From Methanococcoides orientis (GTDB lineage: Archaea > Halobacteriota > Methanosarcinia > Methanosarcinales > Methanosarcinaceae): a DNA stretch of 64,000 bases. Below, piece by piece: positions 2,315-26,572 of the stretch; position 1 is the stretch's first letter, and each line of letters opens with the position of its first letter. The notes beneath the pieces are model-generated. The model ran no database searches, was not told the origin of the DNA, and saw nothing but the letters and a program-made list of their open reading frames with translations. The DNA lies in contig NZ_CP073710.1 of assembly GCF_021184045.1 (NCBI RefSeq), positions 1,932,685 through 1,996,684 of the forward strand, written 5' to 3'. The translations under genes and the position numbers were made by a program.

Positions 2315-4771
2315 TCATACCTCTATCACATTTCCATCCAGTACGTCCCTTTCACTGACATCCACTTCTTCCTGAACAGTACCGTAGCTTATCTTGTAAG
2401 GTCCAACCGGCATGGTATCGAACTGGGTCTCGCCATCGATCGGGCCCTGTGTGGAATATGGTACCGTAAAGGAGTAAGTTCCATCCGAAACGCTTGACTG
2501 AGAATATACGAAGGTCCTGCCAATGTTGGTCAGAATGGTTACCGAAATTGTCACATCCTCACCTTTCGGTGCTTCGCCAACGACCTGTGCACCCTCAACA
2601 TACTCGAAGACCTTCACATATCCGGTATTTTCCAGAGCGATATTTCCTTCGAAAAGCGCATTGTAAATATTCTTGTAACCAGTCTCAGCAGAATTACCAG
2701 CAGGAGATTCGTGCACCATACGGTATTGTTCAAGGCCCCTCGCATCGAATATATGGAGCCGTGATTCCATGGAATTAAAATACCTTGGCCCCGGAACGGT
2801 CTGCATTCCCTGATCAGTCTGAACAGGAATGTAATAGTCTGCCGTATCAAGGGTCCATGCAGCCATGGCATAGAACTTACCGGTTGCCATCTCCACATCG
2901 GAAACGATGTATCTTGCACCGGCTTTCTCAGGGTCAGGATGGACTGCCTCAAGAACCGCAGTGGCCTCTTCTTCGGACTGTGCTGTGAAGAATGTGGATG
3001 CACCGGGTTTGTTCTCGTCCTCGATGCTGTTTCTTCTGCCACCAACTCCCTGCTGGAACGGATTTGCATTTGGAATACGATGGCCTATGACCTCGATCCA
3101 GTGACCATAATCCCACCAGGACATAACACCATATGCAGTATCAGGGTACTGGTAGCTCTCACCCTTTGCCGGAATCTCATAGCTTTCGTAATAATCCAGT
3201 CCCGGGTCAGGGGTGTTTGAATTCAGCCACATGGTAGATTCGATCCAGTAGCCGTTGGGACCGCCTGTGTACTGGGATTGCTGCATTGACATGTTGTAAC
3301 TTGGATACATGAAGACCAGTATGATCACAAGAACTGAGAGTACATGCCAGATCTTGATACTTTTTACGTCGAACTTATCCTTTAATTTGATGTCTTCAAA
3401 GAAGTCTTTCCAGCCTGCAAGCTCCAGGACCTTGATACCGATGTAAGCAGAGAGTATCGCAGCGTTCACCGAATAATAGTATGCGAAACGGTTCTGCTGG
3501 AGCATGGCCCAGATGATCATGAATGTCCACACCAGCAGGAATGTTCTTTCAGGGGTGTTGTTCTTCTTGAATGCTTCATAGCCAAGGAAGATAATTGCTA
3601 AGAGTGAAATGTATCCAAGGGTTGTGAAGTTACCCCAGAAGGGAGCGAGGGAGAACTGGCCGCCTGAGGAGAGGAGGGGGGAGGCTTCTGCGATGGTGAG
3701 GCCGCCGCCTGTTCTCATGAAATAGCTTGCTAAGCTGGCAATTAAGCCATAGATTGATGGTGAGAGTATCTTTGCGAGCATGATCGCTACAATGGACAGC
3801 GATGCTATTGAAATCGGGTAGTAATATTTTTTGAGATCTCTTTTGTTGAGTTCAATTGAAATAAGGGTGAAAATAGGAAATGCTATGATACCGGCGAAGA
3901 GACCTTTTATCAGGAGACCTTTGGAAGAAAGGTTCGGCACCATTAGTACCATTATTAAGGCAATACCAAAAAGGATCACGCCGCCTACTGCCAGATGATC
4001 GGTAGAGCGGTTGTGCATGTGATCTGTTATATGTTGCACTGTGATGTAGATACCAAGAATGAAACTGAAGAAAATTGCCCCGTACCATGCGAGTGAGTAA
4101 GCACCCAGTGACACTCCTGCAAGTATGAAATACGGGAGTGCAGGCCTTAATTCACCAAAGTTCCCGGCCCTGATGCTTTCAAAGGTAAAGGGGTGTTCAC
4201 GGCTAACCTTCAATGCCATTATCAGGAACATTGCCACAATAGTGGTGAGGAGGGTCTCTGCTATGTGATGGTCATTGAACCCAATCATAGACCTTGAGAG
4301 AAACTGCCCTGGTGCGATCGCTATTAGTAAAGCTGCAAGCAAACCAACCCTGCGATCGAACAGCCACTTGGCTACGAAATATGTTGGGATCACTACTATT
4401 GCGCCCAGAAATGCAGGATAATATGCACAAACCCTGTAGATCAGTTCCTGATCAGGGTTCCCAAAGCCGAGGAACCAGATGATCGAAGATAGTACCAGAT
4501 CGAACAGAGGTGCAAAAATCTGACGTGTGCCATTCGGATACTGTGTGTATGCATCGAACCACAATATATTCGGGAAATTATGCACAATGGATTCTACATT
4601 ACGCAAGTGGTACCAGGGATCATTACCGCCAAACCGTACGAAACCGTTTGACAGGAACACGCTTGCTTTGGGTATGGTTCTGATATATAATGCTATCAGG
4701 AATGAGATAATCAACCCTGCAATGTAAGGTAAGGAATTAGTAATTTGGTTTTTTTTGTTTTCACCGGTCAT
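2315..4771 (-). CDS. aglB: Oligosaccharyltransferase AglB (STT3 family)
   Basis: Transfers a lipid-linked (dolichyl phosphate) oligosaccharide to asparagine in N-X-S/T sequons on the outer membrane face. The N-terminal ~490 residues hold about a dozen membrane segments. The first-loop acidic motif GNDPWYHLR is near residue 48, with DHHIAETL further on. The soluble C-terminal part starts with the catalytic WWDYGHW near residue 551. I chose the ATG at 4769-4771, preceded by GAGTGA at good spacing, rather than the in-frame ATG at 4786, which has no ribosome site. It sits beside the glycan-building genes on the same strand, so it is the likely end user of their product. Confidence 0.95.
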   Translation of the reverse strand: MTGENKKNQITNSLPYIAGLIISFLIALYIRTIPKASVFLSNGFVRFGGNDPWYHLRNVESIVHNFPNILWFDAYTQYPNGTRQIFAPLFDLVLSSIIWFLGFGNPDQELIYRVCAYYPAFLGAIVVIPTYFVAKWLFDRRVGLLAALLIAIAPGQFLSRSMIGFNDHHIAETLLTTIVAMFLIMALKVSREHPFTFESIRAGNFGELRPALPYFILAGVSLGAYSLAWYGAIFFSFILGIYITVQHITDHMHNRSTDHLAVGGVILFGIALIMVLMVPNLSSKGLLIKGLFAGIIAFPIFTLISIELNKRDLKKYYYPISIASLSIVAIMLAKILSPSIYGLIASLASYFMRTGGGLTIAEASPLLSSGGQFSLAPFWGNFTTLGYISLLAIIFLGYEAFKKNNTPERTFLLVWTFMIIWAMLQQNRFAYYYSVNAAILSAYIGIKVLELAGWKDFFEDIKLKDKFDVKSIKIWHVLSVLVIILVFMYPSYNMSMQQSQYTGGPNGYWIESTMWLNSNTPDPGLDYYESYEIPAKGESYQYPDTAYGVMSWWDYGHWIEVIGHRIPNANPFQQGVGGRRNSIEDENKPGASTFFTAQSEEEATAVLEAVHPDPEKAGARYIVSDVEMATGKFYAMAAWTLDTADYYIPVQTDQGMQTVPGPRYFNSMESRLHIFDARGLEQYRMVHESPAGNSAETGYKNIYNALFEGNIALENTGYVKVFEYVEGAQVVGEAPKGEDVTISVTILTNIGRTFVYSQSSVSDGTYSFTVPYSTQGPIDGETQFDTMPVGPYKISYGTVQEEVDVSERDVLDGNVIEV

Positions 4772-4830
4772 ATGCTTCACTCGCATTTAGTGCATATTGA
4801 ATACTTCCACCATTGAAGGCATAGATAACA

Positions 4831-5221: not shown

Positions 5222-6088
5222 TTAAACATTCTTTTGTTTCAAAATAACGTTCTTTTTGTGAGAAATCCCGGTCACAAAACGTTTCCCAAAATTAACCAGA
5301 GATCTCGTGTTCTTATCTCCAAGTATCCTATTTAGAATTGGATAACAAATGGCCCATGCATACGATATGAGCCAGGGTATCGTGATAACCTTTAACCGAT
5401 GACTTCGCCTTGCCCTTGCCGTTTCCTTAACAAGATTTGTACAGTTGGCAGTGACCCCCCCGGTTTGCATCCCTGCTACTATCAGCCCATTCACAAAAAG
5501 AGCATCGCCACCATCCTTGAATGCCCTGATAAGTAATTCATAATCTCCTACGATCCTATAGGATTCATTGAACTTCCCATATATCTCAAACAGACTGCGG
5601 TGGTGAAACATTCCCTGATGCGTAAAAGTACACACCCCGTCCTCAATGATCCCATTCCATGTATAACCCCATGGATTGCCATCAACACAGCAGATCTCAT
5701 CAGCTTCTGTTACTCTTGCAACCTGCCCATAGACAAGTTTAATATTTTCGGATGAACCCTTCATCAGATGTGGTGCCATCTCCTGAAATACGCTGTTCTT
5801 CCAGAGGTAGTCGTCAGATCCCAAAAAGTATATCCATTCCCCACTTACATGTTCCAGTGCCTTATTCCAGGCATTGTAAATACCATTATCGGGCTCTGAC
5901 CTCCAGTAAGTGATCTTATCGTCATTGGTCATCAGGATATCTACTGTACCATCTGTGGACCCACCGTCAACAACGATAAGCTCTTTATTGGGATATGTCT
6001 GATCGAAAACACTATCGATACAGCGCTGTAAGGTCTTGTCGCCATTGTACACGGCCACAATTACGGAGATCAGGGGTTGTGAGATCAT
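5222..6088 (-). CDS. Family 2 glycosyltransferase
   Basis: A GT-A fold inverting glycosyltransferase of 288 residues, expected to move a sugar from a nucleotide donor onto a lipid-linked glycan at the cytoplasmic membrane face. The N-terminus SVIVAVYNGDKTLQRCIDS and VVDGGSTDGT (near 40) are the nucleotide-binding parts. FLGSDDYLW near 108 carries the DxD-like metal site and FTHQGMFHHR lies in the acceptor region. It resembles the WcaA/PgaC-like group. The donor sugar cannot be told. It stands alone between aglB and GDP-fucose synthase, on the same strand. Confidence 0.88.
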   Translation of the reverse strand: MISQPLISVIVAVYNGDKTLQRCIDSVFDQTYPNKELIVVDGGSTDGTVDILMTNDDKITYWRSEPDNGIYNAWNKALEHVSGEWIYFLGSDDYLWKNSVFQEMAPHLMKGSSENIKLVYGQVARVTEADEICCVDGNPWGYTWNGIIEDGVCTFTHQGMFHHRSLFEIYGKFNESYRIVGDYELLIRAFKDGGDALFVNGLIVAGMQTGGVTANCTNLVKETARARRSHRLKVITIPWLISYAWAICYPILNRILGDKNTRSLVNFGKRFVTGISHKKNVILKQKNV

Positions 6089-6178: not shown

Positions 6179-7114
6179 TCATTTCCCACTTTTGTACCAC
6201 TCATATGTTTCCGTAATTCCGTCCCTGAGCAATATCCTGGCTTCCCATCCGAGTCCGTTCAGCCTGCTGACATCCAGCAACTTCTGCGGAGTCCCATCCG
6301 GTTTTGAGGCGTCATAAACGATCTCACCCTCATATCCCACAATATCCCCTATGAGCTCAGCAAGCTCCTGAATGGTGATATCTTTTCCAACCCCGATATT
6401 AACGAACTCACCTACATTGGACTCATCGTAGTTCTCCATAAGATGAACGCAGGCATCTGCCATATCATCAACGTGCAGAAACTCACGCCTTGGTGAGCCT
6501 GTCCCCCAGATTATTATCTCCGGCTTATCCTCCATCTTTGCCTCATGGAACTTGCGGATAAGTGCAGGCATTACATGGGATGATTCAAGGTCAAAATTAT
6601 CATTCTGCCCGTAAAGGTTTGTGGGCATGACAGACATGAAGTTTGTTCCATATTGCTGATTATAGTGCTTGCAGAGTCTTATCCCGGCTATCTTTGCTAT
6701 TGCATATGCCTCGTTTGTAACTTCAAGTTCCCCGGTAAGCAGGTATTCTTCCTTCATAGGCTGGGGTGCAAACTTGGGATAGATGCAGGACGAACCAAGG
6801 AAAAGAAGTTTTTTGACACCATAGGTGTATGCAGCATGGATAACGTTTGCCTCGATCATGAGGTTCTGGTAGATAAACTCTGCAGGATACGTGCTGTTTG
6901 CGAGGATACCACCTACTTTAGCTGCTGCCAGGAAGACATATTCAGGTCTTTCAGTCTCGAAGAAATTGTTGACATCCTGTTGGTTTGTGAGGTCGAGCTC
7001 GCTGTGGGTGCGGGTTATGAGGTTTGTGTAACCTTTGGATTCAAGCTTTCTTTTTATGGCCGAGCCCACCATCCCGCGGTGACCTGCGACATAGATTTTG
7101 GATTTGAGTTTCAT
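6179..7114 (-). CDS. fcl: GDP-L-fucose synthase
   Basis: Converts GDP-4-keto-6-deoxy-D-mannose to GDP-L-fucose by epimerisation and NADPH reduction. Extended SDR of 311 residues, the normal length. [10 protein letters not shown] near 11 binds the dinucleotide. The active-site serine lies in [17 protein letters not shown] and the YxxxK pair in [11 protein letters not shown]. With ManC (28.6-29.9 kb) and Gmd (27.4-28.4 kb) in the same window, the whole route from mannose-1-phosphate to GDP-fucose is present. It could also make a related GDP-6-deoxy sugar, but the match to WcaG/Fcl is close. Confidence 0.92.
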
Positions 7115-7152: not shown

Positions 7153-7791
7153 CTATTTCAACAATTCTGGTAATTCCCATAAATCTGATATAATCGGTAT
7201 ATCATATTCTTTGAATGGATTGTTGTTCTCATCAGAAAGTCTACCAATAAAAGGAACATCCGAATCAAGTGCACCATTTAAATCTGTAATTGCATCACCG
7301 ACAAAGACTACCTGATCTTTTGTATAATCTCCACCTGACAATATACGTTTTATCAAATTTCCTTTTGTCTCAGGTGACCCATACGTTCCTTTGAAGTATT
7401 TTTTGATGCTTTTCCTATTAACTATACTCTTTAATTCATCCTCTGGAGTGCCTGACACAATATACAAATCTATTTCTTGATAATACTCCTCAAGGAAATT
7501 TTTGGCACCAGAAACCCAAGGAGCATCTATAACATTCTGAATCACAAGATGTGAAAATCTCTCCCCCAGATCTTTACTAATTTCAGCGTTTAGATGTTTC
7601 CCAAGAAGTTTTTCATATATGTACTCGAATTTCTTATATCTTGAAACACCACCATTTGCTAAATGGTATTCTACAACTTGATCTACAATTTCTTTCCCTT
7701 CACTTTCGAAGAGCTTAGCAAATGCTTTAGTTTTGATATCAACAGACTCCACAAGTACACCATCAAAATCAAACAGTATTGCCTTTAACAT
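7153..7791 (-). CDS. HAD-family sugar-phosphate phosphatase (predicted)
   Basis: HAD-superfamily hydrolase of 212 residues. Motif I is FDFDGVLVES near residues 6-15, motif II the serine/threonine in YIVSGTPE, the lysine lies in GSPETKGN and motif IV is VFVGDAITD. The alpha-helical cap fits a phosphoglycolate-phosphatase-like enzyme acting on small phosphates. I chose ATG at 7789-7791, behind AGGTGT; it overlaps the end of the cyclase-family gene by 7 bases. It is the last of the overlapping acidic-sugar set, where it might dephosphorylate a sugar-acid phosphate before CMP activation (inference). Confidence 0.82.
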   Translation of the reverse strand: MLKAILFDFDGVLVESVDIKTKAFAKLFESEGKEIVDQVVEYHLANGGVSRYKKFEYIYEKLLGKHLNAEISKDLGERFSHLVIQNVIDAPWVSGAKNFLEEYYQEIDLYIVSGTPEDELKSIVNRKSIKKYFKGTYGSPETKGNLIKRILSGGDYTKDQVVFVGDAITDLNGALDSDVPFIGRLSDENNNPFKEYDIPIISDLWELPELLK

Positions 7792-8477
7792 CTTTTTACA
7801 CCTGCAACTACTGTGCAAGGAGCACCATCTGCACATTTTACTCTAATTGGTAGTGCACAGCAAGATAATATTTGCACATTATCTTCTAATATACTTAAGT
7901 CCATATCTTCAATCAGCAAGATGGGATTTCCGTAATCTTCCGGATTTAAAAATGATTGATGCGCTTTGCGACCCTCCTCTCTATTTTGCCAGGAGGATAT
8001 GGATATTGAATCTATTCCCACTGCACGAAGATCTGGATAATTCCTTCTCAAAAAGATCGCTAATTCAGAGGATAAGCCGGGATTTTCACGCCAGTACTTC
8101 GTTTCGTTTCTGTTTTTGCTAAATCCTGTATAAATAAGAAGTAGATCTGTTTCTTTTGATAAATTTTCAAATTTATCATCTACTTCTACACCCATCTTTT
8201 CATTTATTGTTGGTTCTTTTATTACCGAAATTTTTGAAAAAAACCAAAAATCCGGTGGAAAATCATCAATTGATTTGCCATTAGAAAAGAAATGATTTGG
8301 GGAATCGATATGTGTTCCGATATGATTTGTCAATTGCCAACGGGATGTATTGCAACTGTCACCTCTTGTTACGTTTTTTATACAATTGTTATTAAAACCC
8401 TCCCCATTTCCATATGAAGGAGTGGAAGTATCTAGAGGATAAGACAACCATACTAAATTATCGACATCCTCATTCAT
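7785..8477 (-). CDS. Cyclase-family metal-dependent hydrolase (kynurenine formamidase-like)
   Basis: Belongs to the cyclase family (PF04199) that includes kynurenine formamidase and polyketide cyclases, which use zinc or manganese. 230 residues. The signature H-x-G-T-H-x-D-x-P-x-H is present as HIGTHIDSPNHF near residues 52-63. No partner tryptophan-degradation genes are nearby. The gene overlaps the SDR upstream and the HAD gene downstream, so it is translationally coupled with sugar genes. It may hydrolyse an amide or lactone in acidic-sugar synthesis; that function is inferred from position only. Confidence 0.8.
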   Translation of the reverse strand: MNEDVDNLVWLSYPLDTSTPSYGNGEGFNNNCIKNVTRGDSCNTSRWQLTNHIGTHIDSPNHFFSNGKSIDDFPPDFWFFSKISVIKEPTINEKMGVEVDDKFENLSKETDLLLIYTGFSKNRNETKYWRENPGLSSELAIFLRRNYPDLRAVGIDSISISSWQNREEGRKAHQSFLNPEDYGNPILLIEDMDLSILEDNVQILSCCALPIRVKCADGAPCTVVAGVKRC

Positions 8478-9399
8478 TTTTCATTCCGTCCTCAATTAAA
8501 TACCCCATTTCTTCATGCACTTCTTTGTGAATCGAAGCAAATATTTCAGACATAATGCTCAGCAATCCTTGACCCATGTCTACGTAATAATTACTTGTAA
8601 GTTTTCTACCTATTCTTGGATTAAATGAATAGGGAGTCACCTGATAATGAGTCTCAGACTTTGAATTTTCATAAATGATTTCAACATCTCCGCCTGACAT
8701 TTCGTTGACCATATTTAGCAAATCTTTGTACTTCAATGTCTGGTTTCCAGTCAATATAACATGTTGATTTTCATATTCCGGATCAAGGACCTCTACACTG
8801 GATCTTGCTGCATCTTCTACGTGGATATATTCCCTTATCTCTTCGCCTGTTCCATGATATTCAATCTTTTTGGTTGTAAGGGCTTCTTTAATCAAGCGAT
8901 AAATGCTATTCCGATCGTCTGCGCGATTGCCATACAAGGAACCATAACGTAGAATTGTGTAGGGTAAATCGAACAACTTGTTATAATCTTCGATAAATGA
9001 TTCTGCAGATTGTTTGCTACTTCGATAAAAGGATCCTGTCTGACTATATACATAAACTGAACTGGAAAAAATGAATCGTTCTACTCCAGCATTTTTTGCC
9101 GCTTCAAGTACCATTGCATTGCCTAAAATATTATATCTAATCGTATCAATGGGCCTTCTTACGCATTCATCGATATCAGCAATTCCTGCTAAATTATATA
9201 CGACATCACAGCCATCTACCGCATTTTCAACTGATTCTTTATTAAGTATATCGCCAATGAACATCTCTTGTCCGGCTTTGAGGTATGGAGACGTTTTAAT
9301 GTCAAATATTCTTACCTGATAGCCACTTTGAGTAAGAGCATCTGCAATATGGCTTCCTAAAAACCCCGACCCACCAAAAACAACTACTTTTTTACTCAA
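8470..9399 (-). CDS. NAD-dependent epimerase/dehydratase (extended SDR)
   Basis: 309 residues. Nucleotide-binding motif VVVFGGSGFLGSHIADAL at the N-terminus, acidic residue D34 in RIFDIKTS, catalytic serine in FIFSSSVYVYS and YxxxK in FYRSSKQSAE. It resembles UDP-glucose 4-epimerases and dTDP-sugar dehydratases, but the substrate cannot be assigned. It overlaps the dehydrogenase upstream (4 bases, ATGA type) and the cyclase gene downstream (8 bases), so it works within the same pathway. It may epimerise or oxidise the sugar backbone that the aldolase extends. Confidence 0.85.
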   Translation of the reverse strand: MSKKVVVFGGSGFLGSHIADALTQSGYQVRIFDIKTSPYLKAGQEMFIGDILNKESVENAVDGCDVVYNLAGIADIDECVRRPIDTIRYNILGNAMVLEAAKNAGVERFIFSSSVYVYSQTGSFYRSSKQSAESFIEDYNKLFDLPYTILRYGSLYGNRADDRNSIYRLIKEALTTKKIEYHGTGEEIREYIHVEDAARSSVEVLDPEYENQHVILTGNQTLKYKDLLNMVNEMSGGDVEIIYENSKSETHYQVTPYSFNPRIGRKLTSNYYVDMGQGLLSIMSEIFASIHKEVHEEMGYLIEDGMKNE

Positions 9400-10364
9400 A
9401 ACAATACCTCATTTTTCAATTTTTCGTTACAGTTATATCGAATAATTTCTTCTGTAGCTTCCAATTCCATTCTTTGCCTGGATTCTCTTGTGCTAGCACC
9501 CATATGACATGTGAGTACCACTGATTCACATTGACTTAAAGGACCATCGTAAGGTTCATTCTCGAACACATCAATGGCTGCTCCGGCAATCATCCCCTCT
9601 TCCAATGCAGATAACAAAGCCAACTCGTCTACCACTGGCCCCCTTGCAGTATTAATCAACACTGCAGTAGACCTCATCTTTTTGAGTGCATTATCATCAA
9701 TTAAGTGGAATGTGCTTTCGGTGAGTGGTATGTTTAAAGAAACTACATCAGAATTCTCCAGTAGGCTATCTTTATCCACCCATTCAATCCCCATCATGTG
9801 ACCAAAGGCCATGTCCGGGTCTATATCATTAGCCAGTATGTTGACATTGAATGGTTGCAATAAGTGTACCAGTGTTTTCCCAATACGCCCCAAGCCAATA
9901 ATACCTACAGTCTTACCATATAGCAATCCACCCATGTGGCGATGCCATTTACCTTCTCTTAAGTGGCGATCTGTAGCAGTTATCCTTCGAAGACAATCAA
10001 GAATCAATCCCATACAGAGTTCTGCCACAGCCACTGTTGGTGCATCGGGAGTAAAGGCTACTTTCACATTACGCATTTTTGCAAGATCAAAATCAACCCC
10101 ATCCAGGCCAATCCCTACACGTGAGATCAATTTGAGATCCGGTGCATTTTCAAATACAGATGCATCGATTATCTCAGTACCAGCTATGAGGGCATCACAA
10201 TCTATTATCTGTGTAGCCAATTCTTGTGTCGTAATTTTGCGGCCATATGGATTGAGCTTGTAGCTTATTCCTTCTGCTTCCAGAAGATCAAGAGGCTCAG
10301 TAGAAATCTCACCAAATGGATGAGTTGATATGAACACTTTCTTTATAGATGTGGCTTTATCCAT
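9396..10364 (-). CDS. D-isomer 2-hydroxyacid dehydrogenase (SerA-like)
   Basis: NAD-dependent dehydrogenase of 322 residues, shorter than true SerA because it has no ACT or regulatory domain. Rossmann motif TVGIIGLGRIGKTL lies near 145-158, the catalytic arginine in NTARGPVVDE near 240, and the catalytic histidine in LTCHMGAS near 290. The family reduces 2-keto acids or oxidises D-2-hydroxy acids. It begins 4 bases after the aldolase gene ends and overlaps the SDR, which points to a 2-keto or 2-hydroxy sugar acid rather than serine synthesis. This is an inference. Confidence 0.85.
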   Translation of the reverse strand: MDKATSIKKVFISTHPFGEISTEPLDLLEAEGISYKLNPYGRKITTQELATQIIDCDALIAGTEIIDASVFENAPDLKLISRVGIGLDGVDFDLAKMRNVKVAFTPDAPTVAVAELCMGLILDCLRRITATDRHLREGKWHRHMGGLLYGKTVGIIGLGRIGKTLVHLLQPFNVNILANDIDPDMAFGHMMGIEWVDKDSLLENSDVVSLNIPLTESTFHLIDDNALKKMRSTAVLINTARGPVVDELALLSALEEGMIAGAAIDVFENEPYDGPLSQCESVVLTCHMGASTRESRQRMELEATEEIIRYNCNEKLKNEVLF

Positions 10365-10368
10365 AATA

Positions 10369-11133
10369 TCACAACTTTTTTATTTGCTCAATCGAATTTC
10401 TGCAACCTTCTCCCAAAAACAAGATGTCCAAACTATGTGCAATAAAACGATACCCTTCATCGACTTTTTCTTTAAACTCATCAAATGTTGGTGGAATCAC
10501 ATGAAAACCAGAAAGTGAATCGAGACGATTTGATACCTCTTTTACTTTTTCTAGTGCCTTCACAACATCAGGATGATCAAACTGCCCGGGAACGCCAAGT
10601 GAGCCTGAAAGATCATAAGGGCCTATAATAAAACCATCAACACCATCTACCGTTAATATTTCCTCCAAGTTTTCAACGGCTTCTATATGTTCCACCTGTA
10701 CGATTACAATACTCTCTTCATCGTTCCATTCTTTATATTCTTCAAATGATTCTCCATACCCCTGTGCACGGGCCAGGCCAACGCCGCGTATTCCTTTTGG
10801 CGGATACTTTACGGAAGACACGGCCTGTTCCGCATCCTCACGACAGTTTACCATCGGAACGATCACACCATGGGCACCAGCATCCATTACTCTTTTTATG
10901 AGATTTGGATCATTTTTGCCTACTCTGACAAGAGGCACACACCCTGCCAGTTCAATTACCTGAATCAACTGCTGTGCCTGGTGCAATGTGATCGCACTGT
11001 GTTCCATATCCACAGTAAGCCAATCATATCCTGCTCTAGCCATAATTTCAGCTATTGAGGGGTGCCCCAATGTGATCCAGGAACCAATTGTTAATTCTCT
11101 ATTTTTTAATTTTTCCTTCAGTGTCATTGTCAC
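10369..11133 (-). CDS. HpcH/HpaI-family class II aldolase
   Basis: Metal-dependent aldolase of 254 residues that usually joins or splits pyruvate and an aldehyde, giving 4-hydroxy-2-keto acids. GSWITLGHPSIAEIMARAG near 17, DWLTVDMEHS near 39-48 (catalytic histidine), VGKNDPNLIKRVMDAGAHG, the metal-ligand glutamate in VQVEHIEA and aspartate in IIGPYDLSGSLG are all present. It sits between a CMP-sugar synthetase/transferase pair and a 2-hydroxyacid dehydrogenase. It could therefore form the 3-deoxy-2-ulosonate skeleton that other sialic-like pathways make with a NeuB synthase. The start may instead be the ATG two codons in. Confidence 0.85.
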   Translation of the reverse strand: MTMTLKEKLKNRELTIGSWITLGHPSIAEIMARAGYDWLTVDMEHSAITLHQAQQLIQVIELAGCVPLVRVGKNDPNLIKRVMDAGAHGVIVPMVNCREDAEQAVSSVKYPPKGIRGVGLARAQGYGESFEEYKEWNDEESIVIVQVEHIEAVENLEEILTVDGVDGFIIGPYDLSGSLGVPGQFDHPDVVKALEKVKEVSNRLDSLSGFHVIPPTFDEFKEKVDEGYRFIAHSLDILFLGEGCRNSIEQIKKL

Positions 11134-12407
11134 TCCTCACAATTTTCTATTTGTCTCTTTTTTAATGCTGGTACATATGAAGATGTTAAAGAATAGTATT
11201 GAATTCCCATAGATTCTCCATATGAGATCAGTTTCTCAAGATACTTACAATGGGTTTCATAGTAATCCTTGTAATCTCTGTCTCTGAAAAACGAAGGATG
11301 GGTTTCAAAAGCTGTTTTCATAAGTTCATCATATTGGACAGAAGAACTGTGTTTCCAGAAATATTTTTCATTTGGTTCCCTCCCATCTGCACCAATAATG
11401 AACACTTTTTTGGCTACTGCAGAAGCAATAGGCAACATTAAGAAAGTCAAAATGTTAGAGGATTTTTTTACATGAAATTTATCAATCGAAGGTATGTTCA
11501 ACGATCTGCCAGAAGGCATCCCTATTAATTTACTTTTAAGTTCTGGATAATGTGCAATTAATAAAGGCATTGCCATGTCAGGAACCATCACATAGCATCC
11601 ATACTTTCGGACTACATCCAGAACATGATCCCTGAATTGAGATGAATATTCACATGGACTAAAATGGAAAACAGGATCCGCAAAAACAAGAATATCCGGT
11701 CCATTAACATATTCCAAAAAAGTATCATTTTTTACAGTACTATTACAGATCACTTTGAAACAATTGTTTCCATAATCAAATTCCCTGTATCGGTCAAAAG
11801 AAGGACCTGTTGCAAAACAACAAGCTTTATCCTTGTGCTTATTTTGCTTGAGAAGGGAAGAAAGATTTTGTTTTGAGATTGATCTGAATTGTTCAATTTC
11901 TTTTTTATCAAATGTCTTGTAATAGCCATCTTTCCATATGTTAGCTTCTTCAAAAGAGAAATAATATGGATCAATTATCATTGTTTTGTGCAATCTCAAA
12001 AATATAGCAGGATCATGAAAAGCTTCAGTTCTTGTAACAAGTATTAAACCGGAATCAAACTTTTTTCTTGCTTCATTTTCGTCAATTAAGACAACGTTGG
12101 TTAGGCTATTCAGATAAGACCGTTGGTTAGGCGTAGCAGATAGCAATTGAGGATCGATATCTTTCAAATTTTCAGATACCGTCACAAATATCGAAAGATT
12201 CTCCTTCGAAGGGAATCCCCATGCCAGCCGATTGAGATAGTCAGCTAATGTATTTTTATCACCAATTGCCGGATAGACTAAAATGGAATTTACAGACCTG
12301 TCAATAAATTGGTCAGCTACTATTCTAGTACCGGCATAAAGCAAGTAGGTCCTGAATTTTCTTTTAATAGCTGAGAGATCTCTTTTACCATACGCCACTT
12401 CACTCAT
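11130..12407 (-). CDS. Sialyltransferase/DUF115-like glycosyltransferase (predicted)
   Basis: 425 residues, no membrane segment. The core starts with CCFATGPSFDRYREFDYG near 197-214, a GNGPS-like nucleotide-binding loop, then VICNSTVKND and DILVFADPVFHF. This pattern is shared by GT42-type sialyltransferases and by the DUF115 (Maf, MptE) fold. KKVFIIGADGREPNEKYFWK near 340 is a second conserved-looking part. The N-terminal ~190 residues are unassigned. It overlaps the CMP-sugar synthetase gene by 4 bases and the aldolase by 4, so transfer of a CMP-activated acidic sugar is the best guess. A pterin pyrophosphokinase (MptE) is the alternative but fits the context poorly. Confidence 0.6.
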   Translation of the reverse strand: MSEVAYGKRDLSAIKRKFRTYLLYAGTRIVADQFIDRSVNSILVYPAIGDKNTLADYLNRLAWGFPSKENLSIFVTVSENLKDIDPQLLSATPNQRSYLNSLTNVVLIDENEARKKFDSGLILVTRTEAFHDPAIFLRLHKTMIIDPYYFSFEEANIWKDGYYKTFDKKEIEQFRSISKQNLSSLLKQNKHKDKACCFATGPSFDRYREFDYGNNCFKVICNSTVKNDTFLEYVNGPDILVFADPVFHFSPCEYSSQFRDHVLDVVRKYGCYVMVPDMAMPLLIAHYPELKSKLIGMPSGRSLNIPSIDKFHVKKSSNILTFLMLPIASAVAKKVFIIGADGREPNEKYFWKHSSSVQYDELMKTAFETHPSFFRDRDYKDYYETHCKYLEKLISYGESMGIQYYSLTSSYVPALKKRQIENCEE

Positions 12408-13084
12408 AATTTATCCCTTAATTGTTTGTAAAGTGTTTCAGCCAGTATAAAATCTTCCGGTTCATCTATGTCAATGGATTCAAGATTGTTCATTTCAAAC
12501 ATCTGCGGTTTCAAACCAATTCGGCGATTTCCAGCATTTTTGAACGATTCTCTGGAAAAGATATAGATGTTAGAATTTTCCTCAAACAAAGGAGGCAGAT
12601 CCTGTGTCCTGAGAAGTTCCTGAGGGTTGTGATTTACTGGTTCGCCGTTTTGCCAATAAAGACGTGTTTGCAAACGATTTACAGAAAACAAAGAATCGAA
12701 TTCACTCAAATTTTCAAAATATTCCTCTATGGCACGATCAATAGTATCTGCTGTCAACAGTGGATTAGTACTGTGGGTCTGAAGAAAATGTTCTCCTTCA
12801 AGTTTTGAGATATCATAGTCAATGATATCGTTCATAGCTACGATATCCCCCATAAGTTCTTCAGGACGTTCAATTATTCTTACATTGTCAAAATTGGATA
12901 TTGCATTCTCTGAAATCTGTTTGCTGTCAGTGTTGATGCAAACTTCTTTTATGTACTTAGATTGTGAAAGAGATTCCATAACCCGATGATAAAGCGGCTT
13001 ACCGGAGAAATCTCTCAGATTCTTGTTAGGGACCCTTTCTGAATGTTTTTTCATTGGAAGGAGAGCTATAATATTTTTGTCCAT
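12404..13084 (-). CDS. CMP-acidic-sugar synthetase (NeuA/KdsB-like cytidylyltransferase)
   Basis: Transfers CMP from CTP to a 2-keto-3-deoxy sugar acid such as a sialic acid-like nonulosonate. About 226 residues, usual for NeuA. ALLPMKKHSERVPNKNLRDF near 5-24 corresponds to the CTP-binding loop, although the usual ARxGSKR is changed to PMKKHSER. LQTHSTNPLLTADTID carries the conserved Q-x-T/S-P segment. I chose ATG at 13082-13084, preceded by GAGG, and not the upstream in-frame TTG. It starts 8 bases after the GT4 gene stop and overlaps the next gene by 4 bases. Confidence 0.85.
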   Translation of the reverse strand: MDKNIIALLPMKKHSERVPNKNLRDFSGKPLYHRVMESLSQSKYIKEVCINTDSKQISENAISNFDNVRIIERPEELMGDIVAMNDIIDYDISKLEGEHFLQTHSTNPLLTADTIDRAIEEYFENLSEFDSLFSVNRLQTRLYWQNGEPVNHNPQELLRTQDLPPLFEENSNIYIFSRESFKNAGNRRIGLKPQMFEMNNLESIDIDEPEDFILAETLYKQLRDKL

Positions 13085-13092: not shown

Positions 13093-14367
13093 TCAATTGA
13101 TTGTTTTGGAAATTTCGATCAATTCACCTGCAACATTTGACCAACTTTGTTCTTGTTTCATATTAGACAGGCCGATTTTGAAAGATTCGATCTCTTTTTT
13201 GTCCAGTTCAAAAAATCTCTCAATTGAATCTACAAAACTGTTGATATTTTCAGCTTCAAAAGTAAGCCCTAAATTGAATTTATTAATAAATTCACCAATC
13301 TGCCCATGTTCTGGTCCGATGACAGGCAGACCAAACTCCGCAGCATTTGCCAGAACGCCACTCGCCCCTATAAAAGTTTTGTTATAAGGTAGTACTAATA
13401 CATCTGCTGCAGAAAAATAATTCTGGAAATCTTCGTATGATGAATTATCTTCCAGTGATATTCGTTTGTAAGAATCATTCCAGCCAATAGAACTTATCAA
13501 TGAGTCAACATTGTAATCTAGAAGATGGGACATTGAGCCTGCAAGTAGAAAGAAATATTTTTTGTCATCCATTTTTTTCAAAGATTCAATTGTTAAATCA
13601 ATACCTTTGTCCTTTCGCATGGTTCCAATAAACAGAATGATTTTCTTATTCGTATCTATGTTTAAGCTTTTTAAGGCTACCTTTTTATCAATCGTTTCAC
13701 AATCAGTTGCCAAACCATATGGAACATAGAATAAGTTATCACGACTTAGTTTTATTTTATTTTCATAATAGTCATACAAAGCTTTGCTATGAAATAGAAT
13801 ATTTATTTTGTTTAGCATTATATGATAATAGATCTTATACAAAAAATTGGTATTTTTTGGTAGTTTTGTAGTACCATTTGTATAGACATGGATGTCTACT
13901 AATGTGTTCTTAGGAATTATTCTCAAAAGGGATGATATGAAAAGTCCAAAATTACGTGGAAAATCATGAATAAATATTAAATCATGCTTTTGTTGGTCTT
14001 TATTTAGTTTTAATGTAACAAAAACAAGAAGAATTTCAATACTTTCTTTTATTCTTAATGTAACATGTTTCAAAATTCTCAACACTTTTTTTGAAACATT
14101 CCCCGCGGGACCTATATTATTTAATATATTGTTTAGTTTTCCCATTTCATTTACAAAAAAAGGGAAAACGATATAATCAGAAATCTTTTTGTTCTTTAAG
14201 TTATATTCACCGATCCAATCGTGACCAGTATAACCATTATGTAACCCTTCATTAATCACACCCCCGATCTTGAGTTCTTTTACAACATTGTTTGAAAAAG
14301 AGGAATGATGACCGGGTAAATGTAATTGAGGCATTAAGTGGAATATTTTCGTCTTTTTCCCATTCAT
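13093..14367 (-). CDS. Family 4 glycosyltransferase
   Basis: GT-B fold retaining glycosyltransferase, 424 residues from the ATG at 14365-14367, chosen over an upstream TTG. The C-terminal half carries ILFIGTMRKDKGIDLTIES (the donor-domain start) and VLVLPYNKTFIGASGVLANA with ENEFGLPVI-type context; the usual E-x7-E motif is partly replaced (AAEFGLPVIG). The N-terminal half is lysine-rich and AT-rich in base use. First gene of the acidic-sugar operon in transcription order. The sugar donor is unknown. Confidence 0.82.
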   Translation of the reverse strand: MNGKKTKIFHLMPQLHLPGHHSSFSNNVVKELKIGGVINEGLHNGYTGHDWIGEYNLKNKKISDYIVFPFFVNEMGKLNNILNNIGPAGNVSKKVLRILKHVTLRIKESIEILLVFVTLKLNKDQQKHDLIFIHDFPRNFGLFISSLLRIIPKNTLVDIHVYTNGTTKLPKNTNFLYKIYYHIMLNKINILFHSKALYDYYENKIKLSRDNLFYVPYGLATDCETIDKKVALKSLNIDTNKKIILFIGTMRKDKGIDLTIESLKKMDDKKYFFLLAGSMSHLLDYNVDSLISSIGWNDSYKRISLEDNSSYEDFQNYFSAADVLVLPYNKTFIGASGVLANAAEFGLPVIGPEHGQIGEFINKFNLGLTFEAENINSFVDSIERFFELDKKEIESFKIGLSNMKQEQSWSNVAGELIEISKTIN

Positions 14368-14584
14368 GGTTAACAACTCACAATGTCTTGCTGGATGTTG
14401 AATTAATTTATGTATAAATTCATTTTTAGATTTTAATTGAGTGATAAAAGTATCATCTTGTTTAAGTATTTAATTAATAAGATTAATTAAATATATAGCG
14501 TTCTCATTAACATCGAGTGGGTAAGTTAATATTTGTACTCTTCAATTCAACTATTATAGAGATCCATAACTGTTTATTATAACC

Positions 14585-17700: not shown

Positions 17701-18618
17701 ATGGAGTCTCCAATAATTCATATCGGATACCATAAAACAGGCACTACATGGTTTCAAAATAATTTTTACCCTAAGATAACAAACATACAATATATAGATA
17801 GAAATTTTGTACAAAATTTGTTCATTAAAGAGAGATCTTTTCATTTTGATGAAAATGAAGTTAAAAAAAATCTTTCAACAAATTTTATTAATAGTAAAAG
17901 AATTGTTTTGTGTGAAGAAGAGTTGTCAGGAAATATTCATTCTGGTGGCCTCCATGGATGTTTAACAAAAGAAATGAGCTATCGAATTAAAGCAGTTTTC
18001 CCAAACGGGAAAATAATTATTTTCATAAGAAATCAAATCGATATGATTACTTCAATATATCTTCAATATCTAAAAAAAGGTGGAAACTATAATATTAACG
18101 AATATTTATATCATACATATACTCATAATAATAGGTTCCCTTTGTTTTCATTTGAACATTTGAACTATATACAAATCATTACACACTATGAAACCCTTTT
18201 TGGTAAAGAAAATGTGCATGTGTATTTGTACGAAGATTTTTTAAAAGATAACGACCAGTTTATCAAAAATTTTGCAAGTGAGTTTAATTTAGAGTATAGT
18301 TTTAAAGATATGGACTTTAGTAAAAGGAATATAAAGTACAAAAGATGTACTTTTCATTTATCAAAATTACTAAACAGTTTTACTAAACATGACGTTCTAA
18401 ATAAGTATTATTTAATTAATGTACCATATTTATATGATATATCACGAACCATTTTAAAAAAATTAGATAAAGCGCTATATTTTGATAAAGCTGTAGACAA
18501 TGAAAGTGTATTAGGAAATGGTAATATTAAATACATCAAGAAATACTACAAATTGTGTAATAATGAATTAAAAAGTAAATATAAACTTGATTTGGATTAC
18601 TATGATTATCCCTTATAA
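17701..18618 (+). CDS. Sulfotransferase, PAPS-dependent
   Basis: Moves a sulfate group from PAPS to a hydroxyl, probably on a glycan. 305 residues. The 5'-phosphosulfate loop is HIGYHKTGTTWFQNNF near residues 6-21. The 3'-phosphate-binding part is IIIFIRNQIDMITSIYLQYL near 103-122, with R and S in the expected places. No signal or membrane segment, so it acts in the cytoplasm on lipid-linked precursors. Base use is extremely AT-rich. GGGGG lies before the ATG. CysD, CysN and CysC at 23.6-26.6 kb can supply its donor. Confidence 0.85.
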   Translation: MESPIIHIGYHKTGTTWFQNNFYPKITNIQYIDRNFVQNLFIKERSFHFDENEVKKNLSTNFINSKRIVLCEEELSGNIHSGGLHGCLTKEMSYRIKAVFPNGKIIIFIRNQIDMITSIYLQYLKKGGNYNINEYLYHTYTHNNRFPLFSFEHLNYIQIITHYETLFGKENVHVYLYEDFLKDNDQFIKNFASEFNLEYSFKDMDFSKRNIKYKRCTFHLSKLLNSFTKHDVLNKYYLINVPYLYDISRTILKKLDKALYFDKAVDNESVLGNGNIKYIKKYYKLCNNELKSKYKLDLDYYDYPL

Positions 18619-18644
18619 GTTTATATTTTATCTAGGTGGTATTA

Positions 18645-19595
18645 ATGCAATATAACAAGAGCAATTGCCCTATATTCTTAAGCAAAATATACAATAGGGC
18701 AAAATGTTTAAAAGGTATTTTTTTCCCAAAATATAAAGTTAATGATGAAATAAATGATCTAAGTTGCAACCCATTTTTCATAATCGGATCAGGAAGGTCA
18801 GGTAATACTTTATTAAGAGCGATATTAACCAATCATTCTAAAGTCTCTATACCACCAGAATCTTATGTACTCCCAAATACCGTTAGAAAATTTCAAATAT
18901 ATAATTTTTTACCATGGGAAGAATTAGTTAAATTAATTTTAGGAGAATTCGAATCACATGACCAATTTACTATGTGGGAAATTAATATACATGACGTTTA
19001 TGAGAGAGTATTAAATCTCGAAGAAAATAATAGATCGCTTGCAAAAATTATTGATGAGGTATATTGTTATTATTCTGAACAAAAGTTTCCAGGTTTTGAA
19101 ATCTGGGGTGACAAAACCCCAGGCAACACTTTAAGCTTGGGTTGGATTGATCTTCTATATAATGATGCAAAATATATACATATTATAAGAGATGGCAGAG
19201 ATGTTGTGAGTTCTTATTTAAAAATGGGAAGATACAATAATATAAAAGATGCCTGTGAAAGGTGGAATGACAGTATTAATGTGGCCACATCTTTTGGAAG
19301 AATGAAGGGGTCAGATAAATACATTGAAATTATATATGAAGACCTCGTATCCAATCCAAAAAAAGAAATTATTAAAATTTGTGAATTTATCGGGATTGAG
19401 TTTGAAGAAAAAATGTTCACGTATCATCAAGAAATCAATAGGCTTGGGGATACTAAGTTATCCCATCATGGTAATTTAACTAATCCTATTAACATATCTT
19501 CAATTGGGAAATGGAAAAACAATTTATCAAAAGAAGATATCGATGAAATGAATCTATTGATCAACACTAATTTGAGCAAATTGGGTTACATATAA
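18645..19595 (+). CDS. Sulfotransferase, PAPS-dependent
   Basis: 316 residues, from a different subgroup than its neighbour. FIIGSGRSGNTLLRAIL near 45-61 is the 5'-phosphosulfate loop. YIHIIRDGRDVVSSYLKMGR near 174-193 is the 3'-phosphate site, closely matching the sulfotransferase family (Sulfotransfer_3 type). I chose the ATG at 18645-18647 because AGGTGG lies at 18634-18639; the frame is open from a GTG at 18636. It starts 26 bases after the first sulfotransferase and probably shares its transcript. Two different enzymes suggest sulfation at two positions or on two sugars. Confidence 0.87.
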   Translation: MQYNKSNCPIFLSKIYNRAKCLKGIFFPKYKVNDEINDLSCNPFFIIGSGRSGNTLLRAILTNHSKVSIPPESYVLPNTVRKFQIYNFLPWEELVKLILGEFESHDQFTMWEINIHDVYERVLNLEENNRSLAKIIDEVYCYYSEQKFPGFEIWGDKTPGNTLSLGWIDLLYNDAKYIHIIRDGRDVVSSYLKMGRYNNIKDACERWNDSINVATSFGRMKGSDKYIEIIYEDLVSNPKKEIIKICEFIGIEFEEKMFTYHQEINRLGDTKLSHHGNLTNPINISSIGKWKNNLSKEDIDEMNLLINTNLSKLGYI

Positions 19596-20048
19596 CATTG
19601 ATATTTGAATTCCAAAAACGTTGGTAAAAGCAGATACGAGAGAAATCATTGTTACTTGAATGCTACGTCGATGAGCATTAAGTAGTTGTCAGACAAAACA
19701 CAAGCATCCACTTGTGTTTGTGGTACAAACTTACACAAGGGGTTTCTTATTATTAAACATAGAGATGATCAAATAGGTATAGAGAAGAGGATTTCTACAG
19801 AACCAGTATGTAAGCTAATTGGTTACACATTTTTTGCATTTAATTAATTTTTCGATAGACTTAGTATCTAATAACAATCATAGAAAGACGTAAGAACGTT
19901 AGCTTACTTTTTACTCTCAAATCGGGACTTCACTTTCATAAGATTGAAAAAGACGTTGAATTTGTTGCACAACCCAACTTTCGACATAAATATATATTTG
20001 TTGAACTTTTCACATATTTCTATTATAGCATCTTAAAAGGTTTACTAG
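19596..20048. other. Intergenic region, possible insertion-sequence remains
   Basis: No intact gene. A perfect 9-bp stem with a 6-base loop (AAACACAAG / CTTGTGTTT, 19696-19719) follows the sulfotransferase gene; it lacks a T-run and so is not a typical terminator. The right copy of the island repeat is at 19791-19804. Broken frames are seen throughout, but I could not identify a transposase. Confidence 0.4.
19791..19804 (-). repeat. Inverted repeat, right copy (IS-end-like)
   Basis: Reads GGTTCTGTAGAAAT on the minus strand, 13 of 14 bases equal to the copy at 16017 and in inverted orientation. The pair brackets exactly the plus-strand glycosyltransferase and sulfotransferase genes. Confidence 0.4.
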
Positions 20049-21494
20049 TCAAATTTCAAAGATGTTTCTGAAAAATTCAAGTTCATACTTGTTAAACCCT
20101 TTAAGTAGCATAAGTATTAAAAAATACAAAACTACGCATATACCAATCATTATGATAATACTAAATAAACCTACAGGGTTCCAAAATATGATTAAGACAG
20201 ACATCAGAAACGAGGAAAATACGCTTTTTAATATAAACCCGAGATTCATATCAAATCTCAAAAACCTTAGAGAATAATACGCCATTAGGGCAAGGCTAAC
20301 CATAAAGGACAGCAATGTTGTAACTGCCGCAGCTATAATCCCTATGTAAGGTATCAGCAATAAGTTAAGCCCTAGATTAATAACCGCTGCTACAAGCCAT
20401 ATCGTACCCATGATATGGGTTTTTTTCACAAGCATTGCCACTTTCTGGAATACGACAAATACACCGAACAATAGTGCACTCAATGCTACAAAGGGTGTTA
20501 TAAGATAACTGTGCTCTGCTATCTCGGGCGTAGATAAGATCTCAAGCAATTCCTTTGAGAGTAATGAGAGTCCGAAGACTCCAGGTATAGCAACAGCTAG
20601 GAAGTACTTCAAGGAATAGCTAAGATACTTTTTTACTTCGTCGAGGTTTCCCTCATCGTAATGTTTCGATAGTATCATTGGTAGCATGAAGTTCAAAGGA
20701 GCTATGAACGCCTGCAAGATATTACCTAGAGCATAGCCTGGTGAATAGTATCCAACAGCAGATGTTCCTAAAAAGCCCCCAATTACATAGCGGTCACTGG
20801 AGTCCAAGATCCATTTGGACATGTTCCCTGGGACGGTGGGTATCCCATATTTCAGATAACTTTTAAGGTTTCTAAACTTTGGTATCCTCAACCCAAGCTG
20901 CGATACAATAATGACGGTAGAAATCAAAAATACAATGATGGACTTGACCAGCAAAGCCTCTAATGCCCCCATAAGCCCCCTTCCCAGAAGTACAAAAATT
21001 ACAACAAGAGCCATGAGAAGTAATTCCTTCAAGGACTGTAGCGTGGAGTGTTTCTTTATTTGCTGGGTAGCTCTGAAGTAATCGAAGAAAATTCTGTCTA
21101 GAGTCTCAAAGAAGATGATAAGCGAAAGAATCTCTACAATAACTTTGTTGCCGCCAAAGAGCATGTCTGCAATAGACTCTGATAGCAAGTATACTCCAAA
21201 AGCTGCGAACATGCCAGTTACGGTCACAACAGAGAGGAATGAATAGAAAATATCCTGAAATTCCTCTCGGTTCTTTACAGAAGGCAGGAATCTGGCCATA
21301 GCCGCAGGAAGACCCAGAATCATAAGGCTTGGAACGATTCCAATTGTCACCATGACCTGTGCCCAGACCCCATAATCCTCTATGGGAAGGTTTTTTGTAA
21401 GGATTGGCAGAAGTATAATTCCTTTGAAATGGCTGATGAAATTAGTTAAGCTAACCAACCCAATTCTCTGGGCAAAAAGTTTATATTCCTGCAT
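20049..21494 (-). CDS. Polysaccharide flippase (Wzx/RfbX, MATE-like)
   Basis: Integral membrane protein of 481 residues with about 14 membrane segments, expected to flip lipid-linked glycans across the membrane. EYKLFAQRIGLVSLTNF at the N-terminus and LPILTKNLPIEDYGVWAQVM are typical of archaeal members, as is GIPTVPGNMSKWILDSSDRY near 225-244. The frame is open up to 21575, but the extra 27 residues are not usual for the family, so I chose ATG at 21492-21494. The glycan made here would need such a flippase before AglB or cell-surface export. Confidence 0.88.
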   Translation of the reverse strand: MQEYKLFAQRIGLVSLTNFISHFKGIILLPILTKNLPIEDYGVWAQVMVTIGIVPSLMILGLPAAMARFLPSVKNREEFQDIFYSFLSVVTVTGMFAAFGVYLLSESIADMLFGGNKVIVEILSLIIFFETLDRIFFDYFRATQQIKKHSTLQSLKELLLMALVVIFVLLGRGLMGALEALLVKSIIVFLISTVIIVSQLGLRIPKFRNLKSYLKYGIPTVPGNMSKWILDSSDRYVIGGFLGTSAVGYYSPGYALGNILQAFIAPLNFMLPMILSKHYDEGNLDEVKKYLSYSLKYFLAVAIPGVFGLSLLSKELLEILSTPEIAEHSYLITPFVALSALLFGVFVVFQKVAMLVKKTHIMGTIWLVAAVINLGLNLLLIPYIGIIAAAVTTLLSFMVSLALMAYYSLRFLRFDMNLGFILKSVFSSFLMSVLIIFWNPVGLFSIIIMIGICVVLYFLILMLLKGFNKYELEFFRNIFEI

Positions 21495-21682
21495 ATTTAA
21501 ACCAGACAGTTTACTTAAAATATAGACACTTAAAAGAAAGAATGATATATGATTCTTTTCGTTTTGAATTCTCATTCGTTCGTGAAGAAATCTAAAGTTT
21601 CTTTAGCAATCATTCTATGTCAGAGCAATATTGAGTTGTAAAATATTCATTTGCAAGAATTAATAAAATAAAAAATTCAAGA

Positions 21683-22129
21683 TTATATAATACGTATATT
21701 GGAAATGCCTTTTCTCTTCAACTTCATTGCTATATTATCGACATTTTCGGTAACCACTAAATCAACCTTATGTATCTCTGCAATGTCAGCAACACTCTCA
21801 ACAAAATGCCCTTTCATCTTCACAGTCTCAAACTCAATACCACGTTTTTCAGCTTCATTCTCGATCATGCCCAATCGACTTGTAATTAACTCATCCCTAT
21901 CCTTTTTGATGTCCTCTGCCAGCTTCTCAACGAAATCTTTCCCAAGAAAACCATGGTCCTTTGTAACCTTTGCAACCATTTGAGCCACATTTCTATCACG
22001 CACGCTCAGAATGATCAGTTTTGCATCATTTTCCTCTGCCAGATCAAGAGCTGCTTTTGCAAGCTTCTTGCGTATTGAGGTTGCTGAAAAGGCCACAAGC
22101 ACGGCATTTATTTTGTCCATGATATTCAT
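21683..22129 (-). CDS. UspA-family universal stress protein
   Basis: 148 residues. The fold starts INAVLVAFSATSIRKKLAKA and ends with VDLVVTENVDNIAMKLKRKG. The ATP-binding loop G-2x-G-9x-GS/T of some UspA proteins is not clear, so it may not bind ATP. It begins 15 bases after the SLC13 transporter stop, a common pairing in which Usp proteins are thought to modulate transporters. The start could also be three codons later (MDKINAV). Confidence 0.75.
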   Translation of the reverse strand: MNIMDKINAVLVAFSATSIRKKLAKAALDLAEENDAKLIILSVRDRNVAQMVAKVTKDHGFLGKDFVEKLAEDIKKDRDELITSRLGMIENEAEKRGIEFETVKMKGHFVESVADIAEIHKVDLVVTENVDNIAMKLKRKGISNIRII

Positions 22130-22144
22130 CGCTGCTTTTTATGA

Positions 22145-23536: not shown

Positions 23537-23576
23537 TTATACCCACATCCAATATTAAATTAAGAGAAATCCAACT

Positions 23577-26032: not shown

Positions 26033-26041
26033 ATTTAGTCC

Positions 26042-26572
26042 TCAAATAAGCCCATTTTTATCAAGATATTCAATGACTTCCCCTATTGATTCATTGATAT
26101 CTTCTTTTGAAGTATCAAGAACTACCTCAGGGTTCATAGGTTCTTCATATGGAGCACTGATACCCGTAAAGTCAGAGATCTCATTATCAAGTGCTTTTTT
26201 ATAAAGGCCCTTTACATCCCTTTCAATCAATGTATCTCGATCACATTTAACGTAAACTTCAATGAAATTGTGACACTTACATCTTGCATGATCTCTTAAA
26301 GCCCTATATGGAGAGATGAATGAAACAAGTGTTGCAACACCATTTTTTGATAATAGTTCTGCTACAAATGTTGCTCTTTTGATATTTTCATTTCTATCTT
26401 CTTTTGAAAAACCCAGGTCACTGCAAAGTACTTCTCTGACAATATCACCATCAAGTCTTTGAACATAACCAAAGTTCCTCTTTTTTAGTTCTTCCTCGAG
26501 AGCCATTGCAAGTGTCGTTTTTCCTGCACCTGACCAACCTGTGAACCATACTGTAAATCCTTTCTTTGACAT
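26042..26572 (-). CDS. cysC: Adenylylsulfate kinase
   Basis: Phosphorylates APS at the 3' position to give PAPS, the sulfotransferase donor. 176 residues, usual length. Walker A is WFTGWSGAGKTTLAMALEEE near 9-28, RLDGDIVREVL near 39 binds APS, DLGFSKEDRNENIKRA follows and SFISPYRALRDHAR closes the lid. ATG at 26570-26572 has GAGGGG directly upstream; the in-frame ATG four codons earlier lacks a site. It lies 8 bases after the cysQ stop. Unlike the CysN tail it keeps all catalytic parts. Confidence 0.95.
   Translation of the reverse strand: MSKKGFTVWFTGWSGAGKTTLAMALEEELKKRNFGYVQRLDGDIVREVLCSDLGFSKEDRNENIKRATFVAELLSKNGVATLVSFISPYRALRDHARCKCHNFIEVYVKCDRDTLIERDVKGLYKKALDNEISDFTGISAPYEEPMNPEVVLDTSKEDINESIGEVIEYLDKNGLI

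Follow-up and report, generated by a model that had tools for sequence, protein, structure and literature searches.

How might an archaeon furnish its surface glycans with a cytidine monophosphate (CMP)-activated acidic sugar when its genome encodes neither NeuB nor KdsA? Seven adjoining genes of Methanococcoides orientis raise this question. They lie in a stretch of 64,000 nucleotides (contig NZ_CP073710.1, positions 1,932,685 to 1,996,684), here called the window, whose own numbering is used for coordinates. The initial annotation of the window took the seven genes for one functional unit producing a CMP-activated acid for an archaeal surface glycan, placed a pyruvate-type aldolase at its centre, saw no phosphoenolpyruvate (PEP)-dependent synthase, left a cyclase-family gene without an obvious role, and suggested looking for the same neighbourhood in other genomes. 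After a computational follow-up, we think on balance that a 2-keto sugar acid (ulosonic acid) is synthesised, activated with CMP and attached by the products of this operon, without a PEP-dependent synthase of the NeuB/KdsA type.

A seven-gene operon in a genome without PEP-dependent synthases

The seven genes occupy positions 7153-13084 on the minus strand, and neighbours overlap by 4-8 bases or stand 4 bases apart:

12404-13084, minus: CMP-sugar synthetase (PF02348, 97 bits)
11130-12407, minus: 425-residue putative CMP-ulosonate transferase, assigned by fold (C-terminal Maf/GT42 sialyltransferase fold, N-terminal Rossmann-like domain)
10369-11133, minus: HpcH/HpaI class II pyruvate-type aldolase (PF03328, 137 bits)
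9396-10364, minus: nicotinamide adenine dinucleotide (NAD)-dependent D-2-hydroxyacid dehydrogenase, similar to phosphoglycerate dehydrogenase, glyoxylate reductase and 2-ketogluconate reductase (PF00389/PF02826)
8470-9399, minus: extended short-chain dehydrogenase/reductase (SDR), NAD-type (PF01370), proposed sugar or sugar-phosphate C1 dehydrogenase, or epimerase
7785-8477, minus: cyclase-family metal hydrolase (PF04199), proposed sugar lactonase
7153-7791, minus: HAD phosphatase (PF13419)

Coordinates and Pfam matches, and for the 425-residue protein the fold, confirm this series of overlapping or nearly touching genes of the named families. The CMP-synthetase starts at an ATG at 13084 (the list of open reading frames has a TTG at 13096); the first in-frame start of the phosphatase is at 7836 and the likely one an ATG at 7791.

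The genome is a single contig of 2.49 Mb and 99.99% complete. Profile searches of the complete genome returned neither NeuB (PF03102) nor KdsA/DAHP synthase (PF00793), in agreement with the initial annotation; both searches were positive in most of 14 control genomes, that with PF00793 in 11 of them. The cluster CMP-synthetase is the only full-length PF02348 gene of the genome, and no hydrolysing 2-epimerase (NeuC/PseG/LegG) was found among the cluster genes. As a control, we inspected 17 more distant archaeal PF02348 loci: NeuB lies within 1.5 kb in 13 of them, and the cluster-type aldolase, dehydrogenase and cyclase occur in none. None of the eight archaeal loci of the CMP-synthetase subfamily has NeuB within 1.5 kb.

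That subfamily is distinct from the NeuA, PseF and KdsB equivalogs. The enzyme scores 85 bits against the PseF model, with a cut-off of 206, and also falls below the NCBIfam cut-off for KdsB. The eight archaeal loci are 49-100% identical, and the next group reaches at most 37%.

The gene set recurs in archaea and bacteria

We counted neighbour genes with home-made profiles around 88 CMP-synthetase loci, namely the best 80 of 487 matches from approximately 85,000 species genomes and the eight archaeal loci. The sample is skewed to close relatives and phylogenetically non-independent, hence Fisher co-occurrence values are descriptive. Besides archaea, it covers 11 or more bacterial phyla. The commonest partner is the 2-hydroxyacid dehydrogenase (78/88), followed by aldolase (66), cyclase (53), extended SDR (51), HAD phosphatase (49), classical SDR (25) and 6-phosphogluconolactonase (7). 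Chance falls far short of explaining the gene set: aldolase, dehydrogenase, extended SDR and cyclase stand together around the CMP-synthetase in 36 of the 88 loci, the window included, and 35 of these 36 also have the phosphatase. The initial annotation is supported in taking the genes for one functional unit and a CMP-activated acid for its product class.

Three forms can be told apart. Form A comprises the 51 extended-SDR loci, with CMP-synthetase, aldolase, dehydrogenase, extended SDR, cyclase or 6-phosphogluconolactonase, and HAD phosphatase; it occurs in archaea, Bacteroidota, Thermodesulfobacteriota, Campylobacterota, Deferribacterota, Bdellovibrionota, Chloroflexota, Pseudomonadota, Spirochaetota, Balneolota and Bacillota. 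Form B (16 loci) has CMP-synthetase, dehydrogenase, classical SDR and often cyclase, without HAD phosphatase, and can be arranged as cyclase, CMP-synthetase, dehydrogenase and classical SDR. Form C (10 loci: L053, L081, L096-L098, L105, L107, L109, L110 and L116) joins related CMP-synthetases to an AroB-related cyclizing phospholyase (TIGR04425), a GmhA-like isomerase and a GFO/IDH oxidoreductase, and is apparently a further uncharacterised CMP-sugar pathway.

The aldolase is present in 50/51 form A and 9/10 form C loci, missing from 22/88 overall, and found in 0/16 form B loci; therefore it is an addition and not the core or constant centre for which it had been taken. Of 112 genomes of the taxonomic family, three encode the 425-residue protein, and the cluster is therefore patchy. 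Most carriers of the operon are bacteria and its occurrence among archaea is scattered; hence it was probably acquired horizontally. Our literature searches for a precedent found no description of it; the operon is widespread and, as far as these searches reach, undescribed.

A candidate lactone-opening step

The cyclase-family protein carries the metal motif HxGTHxDxPxH at residues 52-62, as in the PF04199 definition HxG[T/A]HxDxPxH, and the motif is at least 93% conserved across 53 homologues. Isatin hydrolase, which bears this motif too, cleaves the ring of a cyclic amide (PMC6117287). Among the 51 form A loci, 36 have only the cyclase, seven only a 6-phosphogluconolactonase and none both. 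In the seven operons without cyclase, the 6-phosphogluconolactonase (TIGR01198/PF01182; one representative was scanned and lay above the TIGR01198 cut-off) sits in the same slot beside the SDR. Plasmid clusters of Thalassovita and Sulfitobacter, which have this CMP-synthetase and dehydrogenase, contain a PF08450 SMP-30/gluconolactonase and an SDR within about 7 kb; no cyclase was found in these two clusters, and the gluconolactonase does not take the cyclase's position. Since three unrelated lactonase-like families appear in one context, a lactone-opening step is the best reading, and the cyclase-family hydrolase probably opens a sugar lactone. The gene that had seemed to lack a role thus gains a candidate one.

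Oxidoreductases, phosphatase and putative transferase

The dehydrogenase has the Arg/Glu/His catalytic triad and an NAD-binding domain; R241, E270 and H287, together with the NAD-type D180, are conserved in 77 homologues. The extended SDR keeps D33, S113/S114, Y125 and K129 (YxxxK). We infer from the NAD-type residues of both enzymes that they would fit oxidations. The closest NCBIfam models of the form B classical SDR are aldose and glucose-1-dehydrogenases, none above cut-off. The phosphatase conserves its DxD motif, K158, D181 and D185, and is present in 47/51 form A loci compared with 2/37 others.

The 425-residue protein has no Pfam match above cut-off (MptE-like PF01973, 12.6 bits against 34.6, E 0.12). 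Its AlphaFold model (predicted local distance difference test score, pLDDT, 89.6) shows the sialyltransferase-like fold of GT42/Maf/DUF115, as the initial annotation anticipated: the C-terminal domain matches Maf 5mu5 (Z 13.3), Cst-I (12.2), MjHPPK (12.2), Cst-II (11.7) and human ST8SiaIII (9.2). MjHPPK is not a glycosyltransferase, and the fold by itself is no proof of function. C221-N222 is invariant in the alignment (A3), and a GPS motif nearly so. Because of the neighbour genes and the CMP-synthetase, beside the fold, the protein is likely a CMP-sugar transferase.

A reaction scheme and the evidence against it

The scheme that we propose draws on observed gene content, conservation, absence of PEP-dependent synthases from the genome, catalytic residues, folds, co-occurrence and the replacement pattern. 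The NAD-dependent SDR would produce a lactone by oxidising C1 of a sugar phosphate, and the cyclase-family hydrolase would open this lactone to an aldonate, as the 6-phosphogluconolactonase replacement and the gluconolactonase of related clusters suggest. The HAD enzyme might then take off the phosphate, in line with its strict co-occurrence with the extended SDR type, and the D-2-hydroxyacid dehydrogenase might oxidise C2 to give a 2-keto acid, consistent with its family, catalytic residues and NAD-type Asp. In the aldolase-bearing form, the HpcH/HpaI aldolase could next couple a 2-keto acid, either pyruvate or the product of the C2 oxidation, with an aldehyde to yield the final ulosonate; this step and its place are the least certain of the scheme. 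Judging by its family, the PF02348 enzyme would move CMP from cytidine triphosphate (CTP) onto the anomeric hydroxyl, and the sialyltransferase-fold protein, judging by that fold, would attach the sugar to the surface glycan. A 3-deoxy product is possible. The exact order of the steps is a tentative assignment, which we regard as doubtful.

Several observations weigh against our interpretation. NeuB is present elsewhere in the genome in 23 of 29 other carriers; its absence from the remaining six counts in favour, and four of these are named isolates (Maribacter sp. 4G9, Facilibium subflavum, Polaribacter glomeratus and Mucilaginibacter segetis). Eight of the 51 form A loci have no recognised lactonase, and according to the SDR tree the replacement of cyclase by 6-phosphogluconolactonase represents only one or two events. 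The first step could belong to an epimerase acting on a nucleotide sugar: a model of the form A SDR (pLDDT 88), built to separate a C1 dehydrogenase from an epimerase, is closest to uridine diphosphate (UDP)-sugar 4-epimerases (Z about 34), which favours an epimerase-like fold without deciding the function. The aldolase fits awkwardly after a C1/C2 oxidation route. Finally, between-family gene-tree distance correlations are weak to moderate (0.15-0.54) and hence not used as strong support; therefore, genes have probably been swapped between operons.

Alternative explanations

The strongest rival, which is close to the initial annotation and which we nevertheless consider rather unlikely, gives the aldolase the whole construction: it alone would build a 3-deoxy-ulosonate from pyruvate and an aldose or aldose phosphate, replacing NeuB, with the HAD enzyme dephosphorylating and the dehydrogenase, SDR and hydrolase preparing the aldehyde or tailoring the product. 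Its near-constant presence in forms A and C would suit such a role, and GarL, YfaU and HpaI of the HpcH/HpaI family condense pyruvate with aldehydes. The PF03328 protein has the His/Arg/Glu/Asp active site intact (H45, R70, E148 and D174), and the same residues are kept in 65 homologues. Genes of the DUF386 (YhcH/NanQ) anomerase family lie near the CMP-synthetase in 21 loci (L040, L042, L043, L050, L057, L066-L068, L071, L075, L082, L086-L089, L096, L098, L100, L105, L109 and L110) and are nearly confined to those with aldolase (20/21). YhcH is a sialate anomerase supplying open-chain sialate to an aldolase (PMC8141875), and the co-occurrence, which counts for our own reading as well, speaks for an aldolase acting on an ulosonate. 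This rival is at odds with form B, all 16 loci of which keep CMP-synthetase and 2-hydroxyacid dehydrogenase without aldolase, and it leaves the lactonase and two NAD-type oxidoreductases superfluous. We also noted a highly conserved His (H149) directly after the metal-binding Glu in the aldolase subfamily (window gene and 64 homologues), where YfaU and GarL have Ser; a search for the aldolase in viral contigs gave no matches.

It is improbable that the genes form a catabolic or salvage module for hexuronic or hexaric acids (uronate dehydrogenase, lactonase, GarL-type aldolase and hydroxyacid dehydrogenase) merely sited in a glycan locus. Among named families, the aldolase comes closest to GarL and HpaI, and SDR and lactonase are used in uronate oxidation. 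On the other hand, the other genes overlap or adjoin the CMP-synthetase in most loci (the CMP-synthetase itself being constant by construction of the sample), glycosyltransferases surround it, and the neighbourhoods contain no recurrent transporter or dehydratase of such pathways. A phosphonate or another non-ulosonate acid activated with CMP is more improbable still: phosphonate tailoring commonly involves nucleotidyl activation (PMC6697681), but no PEP-mutase-type gene was recognised in the cluster or among recurrent neighbour families, and the transferase resembles sialyltransferases in its fold. A conventional nonulosonic acid pathway with NeuB acting in trans, for which the many NeuB-bearing carriers might speak, is hardly credible and was rejected for this genome, which is complete without NeuB or PF00793, and in the carrier G017 the NeuB is paired with its own CMP gene apart from the subfamily cluster.

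The proposed ulosonate pathway without PEP-dependent synthase also differs from each known system that it resembles. It shares a PF02348 CMP-synthetase, a sialyltransferase-fold transferase and a surface glycan locus with NeuB-type sialic, legionaminic and pseudaminic acid pathways, for example that for legionaminic acid in Halorubrum sp. PV6 (PMC6137143), but has aldolase, 2-hydroxyacid dehydrogenase and lactonase-type genes in place of PEP-dependent synthase and amino-sugar enzymes. With the 3-deoxy-D-manno-octulosonic acid (Kdo) pathway (KdsD-KdsA-KdsC-KdsB) it has in common a HAD phosphatase, CMP activation by the same fold and, presumably, a phosphorylated precursor, whereas KdsA is missing, the HAD enzyme is of a different subfamily, and oxidoreductases and a lactonase are additional. 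Uronate and hexarate oxidation with a GarL-type aldolase uses the same SDR, lactonase, HpcH/HpaI aldolase and 2-hydroxyacid dehydrogenase chemistry, yet the operon is coupled to CMP activation and glycosyltransferases and lacks a dehydratase. The sialate aldolase pair NanA/YhcH (PMC8141875) recalls the aldolase and DUF386 genes of part of the related loci, although the aldolase is of the HpcH/HpaI and not the NanA family and no DUF386 gene was seen in this cluster. The C-terminal domain of the 425-residue protein shares its fold with the Maf flagellin glycosyltransferase and Cst-I/Cst-II (GT42), but the protein stays below the Pfam MptE-like cut-off and has an extra N-terminal domain. The Escherichia coli K3 capsule contains 4-deoxy-2-hexulosonic acid, according to a reference in PMC10433991. 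We made no link to this capsule as a known product; the available text of PMC10433991 lists the K3 locus as undetermined and names no such genes.

Glycan context of the operon

Further glycan genes flank the operon, the GT4 gene ending 8 bases upstream of the CMP-synthetase and the others lying on the downstream side:

13093-14376, minus: GT4-type glycosyltransferase (PF00534), same probable transcript
6179-7114, minus: GDP-L-fucose synthase (NF047922, above cut-off), adjacent glycan gene outside the core
5222-6088, minus: GT2-type glycosyltransferase (PF00535), adjacent glycan gene
2315-4786, minus: AglB oligosaccharyltransferase (PF02516, PF18079, PF22627), N-glycosylation context

A sulfation island at 17701-27405, beside the cluster, holds genes for two sulfotransferase-family proteins, a member of a sulfate symporter family, an adenosine phosphosulfate (APS) kinase, a GTPase paired with a phosphoadenosine phosphosulfate (PAPS)-reductase-domain protein, both resembling CysN/CysD, and a CysQ-like protein of the inositol-phosphatase family. 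In addition to being acidic, the glycan may thus carry sulfate. AglB, the glycosyltransferases and the sulfation genes uphold the surface-glycan part of the initial annotation; its archaeal part fits less well with a system found mainly in bacteria. The complete gene order, GT4 included, is retained in another species of the genus (genome G024, locus L005), where a second 425-residue-type transferase (57% identical), perhaps with a different acceptor, stands directly upstream of the cluster (L005:13725-14993).

Implications

It is conceivable, though we would not presume it, that the operon represents a third general route to CMP-ulosonic acids, shared by archaea and 11 or more bacterial phyla. 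Its 2-keto acid would arise by aldonate oxidation, with or without extension by the aldolase, and not by PEP condensation. The products might then be surface sugars, perhaps ulosonates that are not 3-deoxy, to which no gene cluster has so far been linked. Proteins whose annotation goes no further than cyclase family protein, acylneuraminate cytidylyltransferase family protein or phosphoglycerate dehydrogenase would gain a testable role, and many new enzymes with a sialyltransferase fold are predicted. NeuB is a common marker gene in surveys for microbial sialic-acid-like sugars. If the operon makes a CMP-ulosonate without NeuB, such surveys would overlook acidic surface sugars of a widespread class.

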